Both the position numbers and the translations under genes were made by a program. From Gimesia algae (lineage in GTDB: Bacteria > Planctomycetota > Planctomycetia > Planctomycetales > Planctomycetaceae), in NCBI RefSeq assembly GCF_007746795.1, contig NZ_CP036343.1:2531369-2595368 (forward strand): a DNA stretch of 64,000 bases, written 5' to 3'. Under the pieces are notes generated by a model. That model made no database searches and was not told where the DNA came from. It worked only from the letters and a program-made list of their open reading frames with translations. Positions 129-58,408 of this stretch are shown piece after piece (within the stretch, counting starts at the first letter, position 1; each line of letters starts with the position of its first letter).

Positions 129-382
129 GGGTGGCCCCGGATGCAATCCGGGGTTGTCGCAGACAACAGGAAACTGTCAGGGCAATCGCACAATTCAAAA
201 CAACATATCCCACCGGTTCATCATACTGCGTGCCCCATGCGTCCGCCCGCCTGGCAAGTATCGCCCCGGTATCACACACAATGGAAACAGAATGAAACAT
301 CTAAATCAGATTTTTCTACCACGAAAAACACGAAACCGCACAAAACAAACAATGGGTGGTTTCGTGCTTTTCGTGGTAGCAA
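129..382 (+). repeat. Divergent composite intergenic repeat (copy D)
   Basis: The stretch begins with a palindrome CCCCGGATGCAATCCGGGG (about 134-153), followed by a segment similar in order to the better copies at 48.4, 53.4 and 58.2 kb: an AGGAAACTGTCAG block, then CTGGCAAGTATCG and a GGTATCACACACA block. It ends in the inverted CTACCACGAAAA pair at 316-379. The core is clearly more diverged than the other copies. No coding gene is supported in 1-429; the open frames here are short, have no ribosome site and run through the palindromes. Bases 1-128 show nothing recognisable. Confidence 0.55.
316..379. repeat. 64-bp inverted repeat of the CTACCACGAAAA family
   Basis: The left arm (316-337) and right arm (358-379) are 22 bases each. 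They are reverse complements with one mismatch and are separated by 20 bases. The arms read CTACCACGAAAA then CACGAAACC. The same arm sequence bounds the long element at 48371-48657 and occurs alone at 6224-6256, 49841-49872 and 56670-56692. It could fold as a strong hairpin and act as a terminator, but the repeated occurrence suggests a mobile or MITE-like origin. Confidence 0.8.
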
Positions 383-3896: not shown

Positions 3897-3908
3897 CATG
3901 CTTAAAAG

Positions 3909-5643
3909 GTGTCAGGAACGAATGGCACTGCCTGTTGTTGTGAAAGAGTTTGCGTTCATACAGTTGCTTTTCTTTGTTGATGGTAATGGTATCTTGGTTG
4001 CTTCAGCAAAGCCAGCACTTTGGTTCGGCGTTTATTGGCTCTGGGTTCTGTTCGGCCGATGCGATGCCCTACACGTTCGCTGCAGGGGACCTGCTGTCCG
4101 AGTGTGGCTAATTCCTCAGTCGTTTTTGTAACCGCGCCCAGCAACCAATTCGCAGCCAGCATCTGTTGCGTGGTAGTAAACGAGAGTGAACGGGGATCAC
4201 GGCCTGTCGCCAGGCTACTCTGCAGCATCTTCAATCGAATCAGATTGTACGCCAGCAGACATGACCAGAGTTCGGTGAGCACCATGGCCGGAGACTTCGC
4301 CCGCAGGATATCCATCCCCAGCGAGCACTTGATACTGCGAATGTCCAGTTCGATCAGCCAGCGGCTCTGATACACGGCGGCGATCCAGCGCGCCGGGCAT
4401 GCTTTCCGATCTGTGATGGTGGTGGCAATCGTAAATGTTTTGGCGCGATACCCCGGCTGACTGATCTGCACATCGACCAGCCGCAGAGTGAGTGTCAGCG
4501 GTTGTCGCCAGAATTCCTGACGGGTCATCCAGGCAGGACGGACGGGGGGACGTAACCATGTCACCAGGCGCTCTCGCTTGTTCAGTCGACGTGCGGTTTG
4601 TGGATGATTGTCACGCAGGTGATGGTTCTTCATCAGGATCTGAACGCCCCGCGCATGGCACGCACTCACCAGCCAGTACGTGCAGTAATACGAGTCAGCC
4701 ACCAGAATATCACCCGGCCGGAGTGCATCGAGCATTTGCCAAAGCAGGGCCGTTTCGCCACTCCCTTTACCGCTGTAAGGCCCGCTCACCAGATCGACCA
4801 GCAGTCCGGTGGTCATCGAGATCAGAGAAACGCAGCGGAGAACGGGGAACCCGAGCCCCGGTTTCTGAGCCGGGTTCTGCGGATAGGCCCGCTGATTCTC
4901 AGGGGTATCGGCGGCCGTGATGGTGAAGCCGTCAACGAGCAGAATGCGACCGCCGGTACTCCGTGATTTCACATCGGCGACGCTGGAAGGACTGAGGCGC
5001 GCCGTTGACTGCTCTCGAGACTGGACACAGTTCTGGTCACAGGCCGCTTCGGCATCCGCGGCAAGTTGCTGGACGAGATCGCGGATGACGGTAAAGGATA
5101 GTTTGAGTCGCGCGCGACAGTAAGCACCGGTATTCGTACTGCAGACCCGTCGCCCCAGTGCCGCCCATAAGCTGGCAACACGAATGACGGCTGCCTTACA
5201 GCTGCGTTGCTCGCCGGAAAAGAACACCTGAGAGATTAACGCCCAGAGAGTGATTGCCGGTGTGTAAATGACATCGGGGTCATTGCCAAAGTCGATTTCG
5301 TGTTCGTCAAACACCTGCTGCCAGCGTTGATCGTCAAGGACGTCGGCTAGCGGCAGGCTGCTCTCCTGCATCATCGAACGTTTGAAAAGAGAAAATGATG
5401 CTGCATTCACTCGGGAAGATGATATAAATGGCATAGGACCTTCCTTGGTCAAATGTTTTGCCCACACCAACCCAAGGAAGGCCCTGCCAGAACGCAGCAT
5501 AATGCCAGGAGACGTTTTGCCAAACACAATTTCCAGCGAACTGGCAAAAAAATCAGAAAATCAAGCATGTGACGATGTCACATGGGAACCGTTGCGCATA
5601 CTCAAAGCAAAAAAACACCGGCAGTGCCATTCGTGTCAGGAAC
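3909..5643 (-). mobile_element. Complete IS4-family insertion sequence (1713 bp) with 11-bp target duplication
   Basis: The element proper spans 3920-5632. Its ends are inverted: GAATGGCACTGCC at 3920-3932 and its complement at 5620-5632, 13 bases perfect. Outside lie identical 11-bp direct repeats GTGTCAGGAAC at 3909-3919 and 5633-5643; that length is normal for IS4-family target duplications. Removing the IS restores AAAAGGTGTCAGGAACCATT, which matches the arm of the hairpin repeat at 11654-11695. It encodes one transposase. Confidence 0.88.
3956..5434 (-). CDS. IS4-family transposase
   Basis: 492 residues from the ATG at 5434, which has AAGGAAGG upstream; a longer frame to 5527 has no ribosome site. 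It carries out DDE-type cut-and-paste transposition. Catalytic landmarks are LLVDGFTITAADTPENQ (first Asp), ILVADSYYCTYWLV (second Asp) and YQSRWLIELDIRSIK, which gives the exact Y-x2-R-x3-E-x6-K signature of the IS4 family with the catalytic Glu. A C-terminal basic region (RTEPRANKRRTKVLALLKQ) follows. It looks intact and could be active, and could also act on the related ends of the truncated copy. Confidence 0.93.
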   Translation of the reverse strand: MPFISSSRVNAASFSLFKRSMMQESSLPLADVLDDQRWQQVFDEHEIDFGNDPDVIYTPAITLWALISQVFFSGEQRSCKAAVIRVASLWAALGRRVCSTNTGAYCRARLKLSFTVIRDLVQQLAADAEAACDQNCVQSREQSTARLSPSSVADVKSRSTGGRILLVDGFTITAADTPENQRAYPQNPAQKPGLGFPVLRCVSLISMTTGLLVDLVSGPYSGKGSGETALLWQMLDALRPGDILVADSYYCTYWLVSACHARGVQILMKNHHLRDNHPQTARRLNKRERLVTWLRPPVRPAWMTRQEFWRQPLTLTLRLVDVQISQPGYRAKTFTIATTITDRKACPARWIAAVYQSRWLIELDIRSIKCSLGMDILRAKSPAMVLTELWSCLLAYNLIRLKMLQSSLATGRDPRSLSFTTTQQMLAANWLLGAVTKTTEELATLGQQVPCSERVGHRIGRTEPRANKRRTKVLALLKQPRYHYHQQRKATV

Positions 5644-5674
5644 CATTTACGAATACAGCCAAAGGAATATAACA

Positions 5675-6223: not shown

Positions 6224-6256
6224 ACTACCACGAAAACCACGAAACCACACGAAATT
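6224..6256 (+). repeat. Solo CTACCACGAAAA repeat arm
   Basis: ACTACCACGAAAACCACG followed by AAACCACACGAAATTT, a left-type arm of the intergenic repeat family with no partner nearby. It sits between the cupin and DoxX-like genes. Confidence 0.65.
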
Positions 6257-11379: not shown

Positions 11380-11653
11380 GACTTCACTCCTTAGATGTAT
11401 ATCTCATTGAATTGTTTAAAATTTGTCAGACTTGACGATTACTGGTAAATGCAGTTTGTATGCCAGTAAACCTCTTCCGGCATTATTTTTCTCACATTCA
11501 ATGAGAACCCTGTCTTTAAAGGGCTTATTAACACTCCCATCGTCTGTTTTCCTAAATCAGCGGGCTCCGCGATCCTTGAATCCACCGTAAGATGAGCGAT
11601 CACAAACCAGCCTGGCAGACAAACCGACTCAGCCAAAGCAAAAAAAAAGCAAA
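11380..11653. other. Intergenic region without a supported gene
   Basis: It holds the upstream region of the DUF3309 gene and AT-rich DNA. The open frame at 11439-11636 on the minus strand lacks a ribosome site and any family resemblance. A poly-A tract (11641-11656) leads into the hairpin at 11654. Confidence 0.5.
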
Positions 11654-11695
11654 AAAGGTGTCAGGAACCATAAATTTAAGGTTCCTGACACCTTT
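11654..11695. repeat. Perfect 16-bp-stem hairpin, GGTGTCAGGAACC family
   Basis: AAAGGTGTCAGGAACC (11654-11669) and its exact complement (11680-11695) flank a 10-base AT loop. A-rich and T-rich flanks would make it a terminator in either direction. The arm equals the sequence into which the IS4 element at 3920-5632 inserted. Confidence 0.85.
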
Positions 11696-11706
11696 ATTTA
11701 AAAAGA

Positions 11707-48370: not shown

Positions 48371-48657
48371 TTTTGCTACCACGAAAAACACGAAAGAACA
48401 CGAAAAATCTTCGGGTAGGCCCGAATGCAATTCGGGCCGAGCGCAGCGAGCAGGAGGTTTCAGCTCACGAGATCAATTCATAACATAGCCACCAACTGAA
48501 TAATTTATCTTGAGGAACGCATACGATTCACATCGTCTGCCCTGCAACCTCCTGTTGCCTCTGGCAATACCGGATTATATCCGGTACCACTCACAACCGC
48601 TCCTGTAACACAACCAACCTGTGTCAGCATTTTTTCGTGTCTTGCGTGGTAGCAAAA
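48371..48657 (+). repeat. Composite intergenic repeat with inverted ends (copy A, most complete)
   Basis: The left end TTTTGCTACCACGAAAAACA (48371-48390) and right end TGCGTGGTAGCAAAA (to 48657) are inverted repeats. Inside is a core of about 245 bp: palindrome CCCGAATGCAATTCGGG (48420-48436), GCGCAGCGAGCAGGAGG, ATAATTTATCTTGAGGAACG, CTGCAACCTCCTGTTGCC and a second palindrome ACCGGATTATATCCGGT (48569-48585). CAGGAGGTT and AACCTCCTG in the core can pair. No gene is carried. Related copies: 129-382, 53422-53657 and 58152-58408. Confidence 0.85.
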
Positions 48658-49840: not shown

Positions 49841-49872
49841 GTTTTCGTGTCTTTTCGTGCTTTTCGTGGTAA
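49841..49872 (+). repeat. Solo repeat arm TTTTCGTGTCTTTTCGTGC
   Basis: A right-type arm (complement of CTACCACGAAAA with a tandem CGTG unit) with no partner, between the lipoprotein start region and the M56 gene. Confidence 0.65.
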
Positions 49873-49926: not shown

Positions 49927-52893
49927 TCAATCAGATTTTTTTGGAAGAAACTGTAAACGCACCGATTGAATGCGTTCCAGGGGAACATCTTTCGATGTGG
50001 CGCTCACTTCTCCCCAATTGGATTTGCAGTTAGACGCGCCCTGCCTGCCCTTGATTTTGGAACCGGGAGTCAGGATATATTCCTGCCGATGTTCAAAATC
50101 AATCGCCGCGAAATAATGCCACTCCACCGTCGATTGACTCTCGACGCCCCGCTGTTCCTGTGGACGTTCCATCAATTCATAACCCAGCTGATTGCAGCTA
50201 CAGCCTGAATACACTTTACCAGGCAGACTTTTGAAATGGACACGCAACGGGCTGAATAGTTCAGAGGTAAACTGGCGAGCCTCTCCGTCGACAGCAAAGT
50301 CGATCACAGGCAATGTCTGCCCTAATGTGCTGGTACGAGTTGGCAGTTGCAGCTTCTCAAAATAAATCGTTTCCGTTGTCACGTACGGTCGGATTTCGAA
50401 GTGGTCAATCTCCTCCAGAGGCAGCATAATCCGTATCGGCGCGTTTGCCATTCCGACAGAAAACCAGCCCCCCTCCTTCAGATTCCGTTTGCGGCCCTCT
50501 TTCGTCACAACCCATAGCGAAAACTTCAGCTGACTGTTCCCCGTCATGTCAAACATCACTTCGGAAGTATGCCCCGTACTCTGGGGCTCTCCGTAAAACC
50601 CATCGCGAGAACTCCAGCCAGTATGATTCCCGGCAATCAGATGAGTGATTTTCAGTGTAAGCCCCTGCTCTGAAATCGTAGCACCAGTCTGAGCCGGTAT
50701 TCTGTAACGGAAGGAATCCTTTTGATAATTGTAAACCTTGAGAATCAGATCAACAGTCGCAGGCAGCTTGTCCCAAAGTGAAAACAGATGAATTTTTTTC
50801 TCGTTAGACCAGTCGAATCCTGCACCGTCCTGAAATCTTCGCAGCGGGATTTTCGTCTGTGAATCGAGAACATTGATCTCCTCAATCTCAAACTGTGAGG
50901 TCGCTGGTTCAGACAATTCAATGATCGCATGATCCATGAATGCCGCATTGGAAATCGTGGGCAAATCTGTTGGCAGCTTCGAAATCCGTTTCCCTTTTCC
51001 ATTTTCGATACTGAAGCGACCGTCCGCCTCAGAGCGGGCGACGCCACCAATTTTATATGTATTGTCGTCGGACTTTAGTTGCAGTGTATTGGTTCCGGTT
51101 GCATCACGCAGCCGATACGACTCGGTGGCGGTCCGCGAAAAAACCCGGGGTCGTGACCAGGTCTTCCAGGTCAGAACATCGGGCATAATTCCATTCGCAG
51201 CCTCTGATTCAAACCAGCCCATCTGGTCGTATTCAATCGAATACCCACGTGGATGAGCGATGCCCATCACGCGTAACACTGTATCATAGACGGGCAGTTT
51301 GATATTACCGTCTGTATCGGTCAACAGGTCCACATACTTCAGCTTCAGGCTGGGATCCAATGAGTGATTCTGAACACGATTGCACTCAATTATCATTTCA
51401 GGGATTTTAAGTCCCGGCAGCGGTCGCTGATCCCCAGTATGAAACTTCTGGGTGAGTACCACTGGCGCATTGGCAAGGGCGGCATTCAACAATTGATTGG
51501 CGCGATCCAGATCCCCGCGTCTGCGATACCAGGTCCCCAGCAACTGTTGTGCATAAAAGAAATCTGGACGTTCCTGCAGTACGGCTTCCAGTGCCTGTCT
51601 TGTTTCTGGTTGATCGAACAACTTTTCGTTATTATTTGAACTGAAATAGGTCTGGGCAATTTCGTAGCATTTTTTGACAACTGCAGCTTCTTCAGCATCA
51701 ATCTGAAAATCAAGATTCCTCCAACCACCCGAACCCTCTAAAGACGTCTCGGAGACAGGCAGCCGCTGCGGACGCATTCCAGGCAACATCAGGACTGCCA
51801 CAAGCAAAACCATACACAAAGCGGAAAAACGCAGGCGGTCCACTCTCAATAGAGAACCATCCATCAATCTGCGAATCCGTCTGGCCACGGGATGCTCACG
51901 ATGCACAAAGCCCAGCACAAGCGGTTCCACCAGTCTGACTGACTGGCGAGTTGCGGCATCAATCAGTGTTTCACAATACCGTTCGGGATCTGCCAGCCCA
52001 TGCGTCAGCAGCATGTCATCACAGCAGTCTTCGCGCGTCTGCCGCAGCGATTTTTTCAACCACCACATCCCCGGATGAAACCACCAGACCAGGCTCAACA
52101 CTGTCTCGAACCAGCCCATCAGTAAATCACGTCGGCGGATGTGAGCCAGTTCGTGCGCCAATACAATCGTCCGCTGATCCGGGTGTAAAGACTCTACCAG
52201 AAGTCGGGGAAACAAAATGCTCGGCCGGAAAACACCGATTGCAAATGGCGCATCGGTTTCATCAGAAATACGCAACGCCGGGATTTTTTTCATATTTAAC
52301 TGTGTGGAAAGACGGACCATTTCAGCATGTAGTTCGCCTGCATTCAGGATATCACCTGATCGCACGATTCGTAAAATAGCTCGATAGCGGCGGACTAAGA
52401 AAACCCCGCAGACCAGCATTCCGCAGGCATAAACAGACATCAGCAACAGCGACCAGGGAAACTCGGCAGCGGTTTCCGATGCCTCAACCACCGTGGGAAC
52501 TGTTGCACTGTCACTCCTCGAGACGGGATCAACTGAACTCCCTGCAGTGGGGGAAATTCGATTTGAGGGACCCGCTTCAGAAGCAACGCTGGTGACAGAA
52601 GACGTCTTTTCCGCAACAGAAATCTGCGGCGGATCACTGACAACAGTGTTACGAATTGTCGAGTAATAATTCGCAGATTGAGTAATCAAACCTGTGGACA
52701 GATCCAGAAATGGAGGCACTGCAAATTTCAACAGCACGATCAGCAGCAGCGCATAGCGGAAGGGGGCACTGGTAAAACGCTTCGTCACCTGTAAGAGCAG
52801 GAATACGATCCCGGCTACTACCGCTGCCTGCCAACTGGCATGCAGAAACCAGTTGCTCCAGTCTCCGGCTGCCTGGTTGAGAACTTCTTGCAT
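49927..52893 (-). CDS. Large M56 (BlaR1-type) membrane metallopeptidase sensor
   Basis: 988 residues, nearly twice the usual M56 length. Membrane helices occur near 20-38, 46-65 and 147-167. The zinc site HELAHIRRRD (about 247) is followed by TREDCCDD as the third-ligand part. A fourth helix around 355-372 precedes a tetratricopeptide-like stretch (about 390-470, LDRANQLLNAALANAP) and a long beta-rich periplasmic part (about 480-985) with no recognisable penicillin-binding module. It is cotranscribed with the BlaI-type repressor before it (gap five bases). It is expected to cleave that repressor on signal; the ligand is unknown. Confidence 0.88.
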   Translation of the reverse strand: MQEVLNQAAGDWSNWFLHASWQAAVVAGIVFLLLQVTKRFTSAPFRYALLLIVLLKFAVPPFLDLSTGLITQSANYYSTIRNTVVSDPPQISVAEKTSSVTSVASEAGPSNRISPTAGSSVDPVSRSDSATVPTVVEASETAAEFPWSLLLMSVYACGMLVCGVFLVRRYRAILRIVRSGDILNAGELHAEMVRLSTQLNMKKIPALRISDETDAPFAIGVFRPSILFPRLLVESLHPDQRTIVLAHELAHIRRRDLLMGWFETVLSLVWWFHPGMWWLKKSLRQTREDCCDDMLLTHGLADPERYCETLIDAATRQSVRLVEPLVLGFVHREHPVARRIRRLMDGSLLRVDRLRFSALCMVLLVAVLMLPGMRPQRLPVSETSLEGSGGWRNLDFQIDAEEAAVVKKCYEIAQTYFSSNNNEKLFDQPETRQALEAVLQERPDFFYAQQLLGTWYRRRGDLDRANQLLNAALANAPVVLTQKFHTGDQRPLPGLKIPEMIIECNRVQNHSLDPSLKLKYVDLLTDTDGNIKLPVYDTVLRVMGIAHPRGYSIEYDQMGWFESEAANGIMPDVLTWKTWSRPRVFSRTATESYRLRDATGTNTLQLKSDDNTYKIGGVARSEADGRFSIENGKGKRISKLPTDLPTISNAAFMDHAIIELSEPATSQFEIEEINVLDSQTKIPLRRFQDGAGFDWSNEKKIHLFSLWDKLPATVDLILKVYNYQKDSFRYRIPAQTGATISEQGLTLKITHLIAGNHTGWSSRDGFYGEPQSTGHTSEVMFDMTGNSQLKFSLWVVTKEGRKRNLKEGGWFSVGMANAPIRIMLPLEEIDHFEIRPYVTTETIYFEKLQLPTRTSTLGQTLPVIDFAVDGEARQFTSELFSPLRVHFKSLPGKVYSGCSCNQLGYELMERPQEQRGVESQSTVEWHYFAAIDFEHRQEYILTPGSKIKGRQGASNCKSNWGEVSATSKDVPLERIQSVRLQFLPKKSD

Positions 52894-52898
52894 CGGCT

Positions 52899-53309
52899 CT
52901 ATTCCTTTTTCTTGCGTTTCGTATCGGGAGACCGCATTTCATCCAGCAGTTGCTGCAGTTGCTGAATCTCTTCTTCAGAAGGTTTACGCGTTTCAAAAAA
53001 AGAAGCCATAAAGGAAAGCGTATCGCCACCGAACACGCTCTGAAACAAATCATTCATCAGATGCCGACAGGCCCGAATCGATTCGGGAGTCGTGCGAAAG
53101 ACAAACGCCTTGCCCTTGTCTCCTTTCCGCCGCGTCACCAGCTTGCGGGACTCCAGTCGCTTCAGCAGTGTCATCACCGACGACGGTTCCAGCTTCCGCA
53201 TCGGCGTCAGCTCTTCACTGATCTCTTTAACGGTCGCCTCACCCAGTCGATTCAGACAGGCCAGGACATCACGTTCCGCATCCGGAATTTTAGCTTTGTG
53301 TTGGTTCAT
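52899..53309 (-). CDS. BlaI/MecI-family repressor (second system)
   Basis: 136 residues with the winged helix: IPDAERDVLACLNRLGEATV and LEPSSVMTLLKRLESRKLVT, then a wing region (RRKGDKGKAFVFRTTPE) and the helical dimerisation part (LMNDLFQSVFGGDTLSFMAS). It heads the operon with the 988-residue M56 protein. Two GACATTTGTC operators lie directly upstream, with a sequence unlike the operators of the first system at 16.0 kb. Confidence 0.92.
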   Translation of the reverse strand: MNQHKAKIPDAERDVLACLNRLGEATVKEISEELTPMRKLEPSSVMTLLKRLESRKLVTRRKGDKGKAFVFRTTPESIRACRHLMNDLFQSVFGGDTLSFMASFFETRKPSEEEIQQLQQLLDEMRSPDTKRKKKE

Positions 53310-53421: not shown

Positions 53422-53657
53422 GCGGGTGGACTCGAATGCAATTCGGGCCGAGCGCAGCGAGCAGGAGGTTTCAGCTCACGAGATCAATTCATCACAGAGT
53501 GACCAACTGAATAATTTATCTTGAGGAACGCATACGATTCCCATCGTCTGCCCTGCAACCTCCTGTTGCCTCTGGCAATACCGGATTACATCCGGTACCA
53601 CCCACTTCTTCTCCAGGCTTACCAACACAGTAATTTCTTGTCATTTCGTGGTAGCAA
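53422..53657 (+). repeat. Composite intergenic repeat (copy B)
   Basis: Starts at CGGGTGGACTCGAATGCAAT and follows copy A almost base for base through the AACCTCCTG block and ACCGGATTACATCCGGT to a right arm TCATTTCGTGGTAGCAA. The left CTACCACGAAAA arm is missing. It lies between the second BlaI operators and the 98-residue gene. Confidence 0.85.
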
Positions 53658-54143: not shown

Positions 54144-55694
54144 TCATCGACCGACCGTCAGCACAACCGTCGCGCCTTTTTGCCGAAACGGTGACTGCAT
54201 GTAGCCGGTCGTAGGCAGATCTACCTGAATATGCAATCGCTGCCGCTGTCCCTCCGTTTCGACAGCATAGCCCAGCAGACGGTTGGAAATGTCCTCCCCG
54301 GCCGCCCGGACCTCGGTGACCTCGACAGAGTTGATAATCTGCCAGTCCTCCGGCAGATCGACGACAATCAGTGCGCGATCGTTAAACAGCTGTTTGTTCG
54401 AGGCCAGATCAGCGTGATACGTATCGGTATATTCGCTCTTTAATTGCAGGTTCGACAATACCGCACTGATCTGTAACTGATCGGGCTCGCTGCGCGTCGT
54501 CGTAATTTCAAAAGGTGGTTTGGTGAACGCCTCTGAAACAATCAGCGCAGGGTCTCCAAACAGGATCCGCGCCGCGGTCCCCTTGAGCATCACATCGCTG
54601 GGAGTCCATTTCGGAGAGGGCATCTGATCCACAAACGGCTTGAGTTCAGGCAGCCTTCCCCCATTCCCCAGGATCACGCCGTTATGCGTGTGCCGCATGA
54701 CATCGCCCAGCGAACTTCCAGTATAGGCCAGGTATTCCATTTCCTGGTAAACCGGAATCCCGTGATCAGGATGCAGGGCGGCCAGGTAGGCGATGATACT
54801 GTTATCGAGCAGGTTCAGGCAAAAGCTTTTTTCTGCAGAGACGGTCTTACTCTCAACCTTCCCCTGCGCCGTCCATTGTTTAAACCAGCGACCGGTGACC
54901 CCCGTATAACAGGCACCGTTAAATATTACACTGGGAGAAAGTTTCAGTTGTTTCGCCTGCTGACCTTGCAGTCCGTCGATCACCCCGTCCGGATCGCCAT
55001 GCCCGCCCAGATGAATCAACCCTGCTCCCTGCAACGCATCCAGTCGGCTGTCGGTAAATCCGTCTGCACCATGCGAAATACTCGCCAGTGCTGTCCGCTC
55101 CTGATAAACGGGAATCATAAAACAACCCGCATGCTGCAGGAACTGGCTCCGGGGAGCCTGGGGATTGGGGCCGAAATTATCAATCAGCTTACCCGGTAAA
55201 GTGGATTCACCATTCACGGCTCTGGCAGTCCGCTCCACGAATGAAGTGACAGCGTCTGGATTCGCACCGGTAATAAATCCACTGCTCACATCAACGAGTG
55301 GGTCATCATCAATCCGGGTGGTCAATGCCAGCCATTTCCAGGCAAAGTTCACATCAAGTTCGTCCGGCTTGATAAAGATGAGCGCATACCGCGGCTGTAT
55401 TGTTTTGAGTTGTTCCAGAACCGATTCAACATTGTCGGTAGAAAACTTCAAATAAGTGGCTTCCGAATGCAGGGCCTGGGCTTTCTGAATTGCCTGATGG
55501 TAATCGCGATCGGCGGCTGCAGTCGCCAGAATCACATAGGGGCCTGAACTGTCCAGTCGCACGGACAAAGGTTGACGCGGCTTTGAGAACGCGAATGGCT
55601 GACAGGCGAAGAGCACTACAAAACTGGAAACAGCAATTCCAGCCAGACTCAGGGTCCAGATCAAAGTCTGACGTTTGTGTGACTGCATCACCAT
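54144..55694 (-). CDS. Caspase/gingipain-like (clan CD, C25-like) exported protein
   Basis: 516 residues; the ATG at 55694 has AGGAAA upstream. The N-terminal hydrophobic segment (about 10-30) looks like a signal or anchor. The catalytic pattern of clan CD is visible: GLIHLGGHGDPDGV (His about 232) and SVIFNGACYTG (Cys about 262). The C-terminal part of the domain has ILFGDPALIV, the feature of the C25 (gingipain) family. A beta-sandwich-like tail (about 400-516) follows. It could be a cysteine protease active in the periplasm or outside; whether it is active is unknown. Its neighbours are a small membrane protein and a DUF2089 regulator. Confidence 0.68.
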   Translation of the reverse strand: MVMQSHKRQTLIWTLSLAGIAVSSFVVLFACQPFAFSKPRQPLSVRLDSSGPYVILATAAADRDYHQAIQKAQALHSEATYLKFSTDNVESVLEQLKTIQPRYALIFIKPDELDVNFAWKWLALTTRIDDDPLVDVSSGFITGANPDAVTSFVERTARAVNGESTLPGKLIDNFGPNPQAPRSQFLQHAGCFMIPVYQERTALASISHGADGFTDSRLDALQGAGLIHLGGHGDPDGVIDGLQGQQAKQLKLSPSVIFNGACYTGVTGRWFKQWTAQGKVESKTVSAEKSFCLNLLDNSIIAYLAALHPDHGIPVYQEMEYLAYTGSSLGDVMRHTHNGVILGNGGRLPELKPFVDQMPSPKWTPSDVMLKGTAARILFGDPALIVSEAFTKPPFEITTTRSEPDQLQISAVLSNLQLKSEYTDTYHADLASNKQLFNDRALIVVDLPEDWQIINSVEVTEVRAAGEDISNRLLGYAVETEGQRQRLHIQVDLPTTGYMQSPFRQKGATVVLTVGR

Positions 55695-56669: not shown

Positions 56670-56692
56670 CTTTCGTGTTGTTCGTGGTAGAG
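56670..56692 (+). repeat. Solo repeat arm TTTCGTGTTGTTCGTGGTAG
   Basis: A right-type arm of the intergenic repeat family, with a second weak CGTGGAATTTTTCGTAG string at 56710. It lies upstream of the Gfo/Idh/MocA gene. Confidence 0.6.
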
Positions 56693-58151: not shown

Positions 58152-58408
58152 AAAAAAGGGTCGGCCCGAATAAAATTCGGGCCGAGCGTAGCGAGCAGAA
58201 GGTTGCAGCTCACGAGATCAATTTACAACAGAGAAACCCACCTGTTCGATAAAAAGAGCTTGAGGCACACCCACACTCTACAACATCTACCCCACAACCT
58301 CCTGTTGCCTCCAGCAATATCGGATTACATCCGATACCACCCAACTTCTCTACCACACCCCCACCAGCAAATTTTCGTGTCGTTTCGTGTCTTTCGTGGT
58401 AGCAAAAA
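58152..58408 (+). repeat. Composite intergenic repeat (copy C)
   Basis: GGCCCGAATAAAATTCGGGCC starts the core; GAGCGTAGCGAGCAGAAGG, CACAACCTCCTGTTGCCTCC and CGGATTACATCCGATACC follow. The right arm has two units (TTTTCGTGTCGTTTCGTGTC) and GTGGTAGCAAAA. The left arm is absent. It lies between the Gfo/Idh/MocA stop and the membrane-protein gene. Confidence 0.85.

Follow-up and report, generated by a model that had tools for sequence, protein, structure and literature searches.

What kind of element is the 287-bp repeat that lies at positions 48371 to 48657 of the window, the 64,000-nt stretch of the Gimesia algae chromosome analysed here, and what moves or maintains it? The original prediction, made from this DNA alone, described a composite intergenic element bounded by CTACCACGAAAA inverted ends, which could be a non-autonomous mobile element, a structured RNA or a processed transcript, and assigned it to no named family. 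The analysis indicates that these boundaries were drawn too wide, as the repeating unit is the internal stretch 48413-48592 and the outer ends are not constant. This core is best read as a REPIN, a non-autonomous single-stranded DNA element that would be mobilised by a cognate REP-associated tyrosine (Y1, HUH) transposase (RAYT, also TnpA-REP) and that is orphaned in its own genome, a reading to which we give a probability of about 0.86.

The features of the window are collected in Table 1. The components first noticed within the element are present in the sequence, including both side palindromes, CCCGAATGCAATTCGGG and ACCGGATTATATCCGGT, and the internal complementary blocks CAGGAGGTT and AACCTCCTG. 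Three related cores had been proposed elsewhere in the window; two are full cores, one with an outer repeat at its right side only (53643-53654) and one that starts 19 bp beyond an ORF end, and the third, proposed at 129-382, resolves into a solitary B-type REP and a separate pair of CACGAA repeats. A further 'B' unit at 55300 is a false positive of a loose unit finder. Inspection of the window and its ORF list places the core copies between long ORFs. Between the first and second cores, at 49927-53309, a Peptidase M56 (BlaR1-like) gene adjoins a Penicillinase_R-type repressor gene.

Table 1. Positions in the window of the REPIN cores, their parts and the CACGAA outer repeats
Feature	Position	Strand	Details
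REPIN core: A end, spacer, B end, in inverted orientation	48413..48592	+	180 bp
A-type REP end	48413..48455	+	GGGTAG foot, hairpin 1, hairpin 2, CAGGA (48451-48455)
A-end hairpin 1	48419-48437	+	8-bp stem, GCA loop
A-end hairpin 2	48438-48450	+	tandem G.A/A.G, GCA loop
B-type REP end	48550..48592	-	GAGTGG foot (variant of GGGTGG), hairpin 1, hairpin 2 TTGCC/GGCAA, CAGGA
Inner arm CAGGAGGTT	48451..48459	+	pairs with 48546-48554
Inner arm AACCTCCTG	48546..48554	+	pairs with 48451-48459
Left outer CACGAA repeat (CTACCACGAAAAACACGAAAGAACACGAAAA)	48371..48406	+	separate repeat family
Right outer CACGAA repeat, inverted	48630..48657	-	separate repeat family
Second REPIN core	53424..53603	+	93% identity to first core over 192 nt
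Third REPIN core	58158..58342	+	right outer repeat only, 58372-58407
Solitary B-type REP end, no full core	129..171	+	within the proposed core 129-382
CACGAA outer repeat pair, inverted, no core in between	313..382	.	within the proposed core 129-382
Outer CACGAA repeat, solitary	6225..6236	+	window pattern match
Outer CACGAA repeat, solitary	49861..49872	-	window pattern match
Outer CACGAA repeat, solitary	56679..56690	-	window pattern match

Each REP unit consists of a foot, an 8-bp hairpin, a small second hairpin and a CAGGA-like tail, and the second hairpin distinguishes A ends, where it carries a tandem G.A mismatch, from B ends, where it is paired. The own genome (G000) yielded 108 units (58 A, 50 B) in 60 stretches chosen around pattern matches, after removal of overlaps and of units without a recognisable tail from 122 raw candidates. 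Convergent pairs 120-300 bp apart join an A to a B end in 21/21 cases, are 180-202 bp long and enclose a variable spacer of roughly 90 nt, with 42 of the 108 units standing in such pairs and 66 unpaired. When all collected loci are pooled, an A end meets a B end in 79 of 80 unique convergent pairs, and as REP copies are related, neither these pairs nor the units are independent events. A GTAG/GTGG-type tetranucleotide at the 5' foot of a palindromic hairpin and inverted doublets able to fold into a hairpin, both hallmarks of REPs and REPINs, are thus found here.

The first unit finder required six of eight hairpin-1 pairs and the hairpin-2 letters, including the G.A positions of A ends, and its 204/204 is therefore no evidence for those letters. 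A recount over the collected loci, excluding the other-genus RAYT loci L251-L263 and leaving hairpin 2 free, gave 328 unique units, 314 of them with a 13-nt hairpin 2, of which 208 were nearest A and 106 nearest B. The tandem G.A/A.G is kept in 205/208 of the units nearest A, and the outer pair of the A hairpin 2 switches between C-G (186) and T-A (15). One pair of the B hairpin 2 likewise switches between T-A (62) and C-G (41) among the 106 units nearest B; with the first unit finder, this position was paired in 97% of cases versus 52% after shuffling. The loops of hairpin 2 are mostly GNA, with GNNA in some. The feet, for which the finder limited the choice of the first four letters and left the last two open, read GGGTGG in 59, GGGTGA in 54, GGGTAA in 51 and GGGTAG in 21 of 205 A ends, and GGGTGG in 68 and GGGTAG in 28 of 138 B ends, so that about half of A ends have a GTRA rather than the canonical GTRG foot. 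The inner arms match each other better within an element (10.75/14) than when arms are swapped between elements (9.16, with a maximum of 9.88 in 2000 swaps; 77 REPINs).

The core is both abundant and dispersed, as befits REPs and REPINs. A core pattern allowing up to two mismatches has 88 matches in the own genome, spread from 0.02 to 7.89 Mb, versus 0 for the reversed-pattern control. Among 40 genomes (17 of the genus including the own one and 23 of other genera), the pattern occurs in 17/17 of the genus, with 1-147 matches each, two of the low counts coming from genomes that are 74-76% complete, and in 0/23 of the other genera; it is tuned to the genus's own letters, and other genera have the same REP layout in other sequence. 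A scan of genome contigs with a stricter core pattern returned 56 stretches, all in planctomycete metagenome assemblies, and those with a genus name are Gimesia. The idea of a non-autonomous mobile element thus appears sound for the core only, given its dispersal across the 17 genus genomes searched and its linkage to a RAYT in five congeners. The A end lies on the + strand in 17/21 REPINs across the own genome, and seven REPINs of one orientation lie within 28 kb around the window (G000:C1:2579781-2607448).

Y1 transposase genes are found in 14/17 genus genomes, and one Y1 subgroup sits between REPs of the core family, intact in G001, G005, G008 and G014 and split in G010. Core-family REPs lie on both sides of these cognate RAYT genes in 5/5 cases (four intact, one split), which supplies through the congeners the association with a RAYT that characterises REPs and REPINs. 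One gene of this type is present per genome where it is found. The proteins of G005, G008 and G014 are 71-79% identical to the G001 query, and the RAYTs of the genus form one clade (support 100/100). Three cognate RAYTs scanned score 113-124 bits on the NCBIfam model REP_Tyr_transpos (NF047646; cut-off 80) versus 24-30 bits on the IS200 model (cut-off 55), and the sole match of the G001 RAYT among PDB sequences at E<=0.1 is 4er8, the E. coli TnpA-REP (E 0.0021). The HUH motif DHVH and the motif Y[IM]HMNP are present in four aligned RAYTs, and a WQ motif is likewise reported; a REP_Tyr_transpos match together with HUH and Y--NP motifs is what identifies a RAYT/TnpA-REP. In G001 and G008 a REP covers the end of the RAYT gene, namely its last five codons and stop, and G008 has a REPIN array beside the gene. 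Apart from extragenic location, which inspection of the window suggests for the copies there, the sequence features of REPs, REPINs and RAYTs that were open to testing are accordingly present, and a named family does exist for the element: by these sequence features, it is assigned to a REPIN family with its RAYT.

In the own genome no cognate RAYT turned up: identity of its four Y1 proteins to the cognate RAYT is 23-35%. Its Y1 genes were considered as mobilisers and set aside, since the palindromes beside them are not of the core family but of the GGTGTCAGGAACC kind at three genes and of the TGTTGGCTTGCCAACA type at the fourth. Two near-identical copies of a Y1 gene with its upstream flank are found at 2.10 and 3.35 Mb (L010 and L011), and in the third copy (L009) the gene is similar and the flank differs. 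A second REP-like palindrome family, of the GTGTCAGGAACC type, occurs in the window at 2518-2555, 3898-3935, 5617-5654 and 11651-11698, and the own genome also has palindromes of this type on the flanks of three other genes for Y1 transposases. A direct repeat of at least 300 nt and 97% identity is present at 2517-2816 and 3897-4196 of the window, 1380 bp apart.

A response-regulator gene marks one locus of the cognate RAYT. The RAYT (split in G010) adjoins this gene at 4/15 congener loci fetched by it, in G008 it lies about 2.5 kb away, and the same locus in the own genome and in G013 has a REPIN and no RAYT, a pattern that points to a RAYT probably inherited and then lost. Copy number does not track the enzyme, as genomes without it have 147 (G012), 111 (G009), 92 (G013) and 88 (G000) matches and G014, with it, has 39. 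With no RAYT of the cognate type detected in the own genome, its copies are most likely an orphaned population, and we infer their mobility from the congeners.

In the proposed mechanism, the two inverted REP ends around the variable spacer would move together as single-stranded DNA. The cognate RAYT would recognise the GTRR foot and the hairpins on an exposed single strand, nick nearby and join the element into a new single-stranded site, and because joining would be into a single strand, no target duplication would arise. Target duplications (at least 4 bp, with 2-nt slack) were sought beside the 21 own-genome REPINs and are at chance level, with one found versus 0.88 expected from swapped flanks. 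The own-genome copies would now change by recombination and gene conversion.

Comparison of close relatives offers a partial view of such changes. When 20 kb of syntenic sequence from four close congeners are aligned, 293 bp are missing from G009 and 182 bp from G005, and both indels begin at a GGGT foot (the 293-bp one within 2 nt, with CC shared) and end before the next foot; these could reflect processing at the foot, and also recombination between direct REPs. The alignment holds 20 gap runs of at least 90 columns, several in poorly aligned stretches, and its other indels either lack REP boundaries or cannot be read. The four close congeners showed no orthologous site where a REPIN had inserted cleanly into otherwise REP-free sequence, and at two conserved sites the position of the REPIN is kept and its interior swapped, which amounts to replacement rather than insertion. 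At the window element, the adjoining 301-aa gene has no DNA match in 16 congeners and thus allows no empty-site comparison.

The alternative that survives best is that the RAYT is not the mover, now or recently, and that copies spread through local duplication, recombination and gene conversion. The replaced interiors would fit this, as would the run of REPINs in one orientation around the window, duplicated REP-bearing units such as two that lie 408 bp apart at 3.345 Mb, and an own genome without a detected RAYT. It nonetheless seems improbable, as the copies range over the genome from 0.02 to 7.89 Mb, all five cognate RAYT genes lie between core-family REPs, and the REP layout follows the RAYT across genera.

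A slightly smaller chance falls to a structured RNA, or an mRNA 3'-end or termination element, kept for the host, a role that would be compatible with the REPIN reading. The 180-nt core folds strongly as single-stranded DNA (z -6.2 on the + strand and -7.2 on the - strand, and -10.4 for the whole 287 nt, versus shuffled sequences and with DNA energy parameters only), and the position of the 58158 copy just past an ORF end would suit a 3'-end element. Fold strength is, however, similar on both strands, the 66 own-genome units without a convergent partner do not fit, and no Rfam match at the gathering score was obtained in the window, which offers nothing for a catalogued structured RNA.

The outer repeats are separate from the core. 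The inverted outer arms do exist (48371-48398 and 48630-48657; 28 nt, 89% complementary), and CTACCACGAAAA with at most one mismatch has 8 matches in the window versus 0.22 expected. As true ends of the element they were rejected, since of the 21 own-genome REPINs just 2 have them at both ends, 8 at one end and 11 at none. An inward-pointing outer repeat lies within 120 nt of 23/58 A ends, 17 of these at 36-41 nt, and of 11/50 B ends, versus 2/58 A and 2/42 B ends in a control 500-620 nt upstream. A loose CACGAA pattern has 86 matches in the own genome (control 2) and 91 (control 0) in G017, a genome of another genus in the same family that has 0 cores. As they are not constant at the cores and are abundant in the core-free G017, the outer repeats form a separate family, an independent repeat that accompanies a minority of A and B ends at a favoured distance. 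A MITE of a DDE transposase with the outer CTACCACGAAAA ends as terminal inverted repeats, which could draw on the inverted arms and on the excess of inward repeats over the control, is largely refuted by this inconstancy, by G017, by target duplications at chance level and by the Y1/HUH nature of the transposase beside the core in congeners. Elsewhere, at L012, a CACGAA repeat and adjoining sequence are duplicated about 190 bp apart (2160-2300 and 2350-2490), in the vicinity of a Y1 gene that has TGTTGGCTTGCCAACA-type palindromes on its flanks.

Returning to the REPIN and its RAYT, related enzymes extend beyond the genus. RAYTs 42-56% identical at E<=1e-30 are present in 36/120 family genomes searched, besides G010, and REP layout was read at the 13 best loci (L251-L263). 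At 11 of these, from 8 genera, there are GGGT-foot REPs with a small second hairpin, usually followed by CAAGA, and such two-hairpin REPs lie on both sides of the RAYT at 9 of the 11; no such REPs were found at L253 and L254. The second hairpin is present in 26/30 candidate units versus 2.7% in shuffles, with a GNA or GNNA loop in 20 of the 26; three of the four candidates without it overlap a better-registered unit having one, and one further unit at L256 was excluded by the filter of the counting script. REP sequence differs between genera and the layout is constant. For one other-genus REP pattern, G071 has 3 matches, each of them next to the RAYT there, G143 has 1 and four more genomes have 0, numbers that do not show amplification outside the genus.

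A broader reading, which we hold tentatively and at slightly less than even odds, is that a RAYT subfamily widespread in the planctomycete family uses a bipartite REP made up of the foot, hairpin 1, a separate GNA/GNNA-loop hairpin 2 and then CARGA, that the unlike A and B ends are true left and right ends of what would be a miniature element, and that the enzyme may read hairpin structure in place of sequence. Each lineage would then keep the hairpin layout as the letters change, and the A (tandem G.A) and B (fully paired) ends would not be interchangeable in this genus.

REPINs are usually about 100 bp in size. The REPINs or BIMEs (REP doublets) of Pseudomonas fluorescens and Escherichia coli are the nearest known kind (PMC3116915 and PMC6006769, cited, as are all sources here, for the portions available). 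The Gimesia element differs from them in its length of about 185 bp, in ends that each carry two consecutive hairpins, in convergent pairs that are nearly always A+B, and in a core sequence confined to the genus among the genomes searched. The arrangement in the congeners resembles a REPtron, a tnpA-REP gene flanked by its REPs (PMC6006769, PMC8266576), in the flanking REPs, the REPIN array of G008 and the single gene per genome, and departs from it where the RAYTs of G001 and G008 end within a REP. The combination of DHVH, WQ and Y[IM]HMNP has no exact row in Table 1 of PMC6006769 as far as that table was available.

IS200/IS605 elements likewise have a Y1 HUH transposase and subterminal single-stranded hairpins and produce no target duplication. 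The Gimesia system shares these traits with that family and its non-autonomous derivatives (PMC6006769), but its ends are inverted REPs rather than the same-strand hairpins of LE and RE, and the three RAYTs scanned fall well below the cut-off of the IS200 model.

REPINs are more numerous in E. coli genomes that bear a RAYT and persist, in lower number, in those that lack it, and REPINs are said to be among the few mobile elements that persist for long with a domesticated transposase (PMC8049555). GTAG repeats have been reported in Planctomycetes (PMC3733652), and the tables of that study may hold a prior notice of the Gimesia repeat. Literature searches returned no description of the Gimesia REPIN family, and none appears in the available portions of PMC3116915, PMC6006769, PMC8266576, PMC8049555, PMC3733652 and PMC12306157. 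New in detail are the unlike two-hairpin ends, the layout common to one RAYT group across genera and the orphaned populations in RAYT-less congeners. For the Gimesia-type RAYT group, which does not feature among the groups tested biochemically in the available part of PMC8266576, the two-hairpin layout common to several genera supplies a recognition rule that can be tested. Within one genus, the same REPIN family occurs alongside a RAYT that is intact in some genomes, split in another and apparently absent from others, which offers a natural comparison of the enzyme's contribution.
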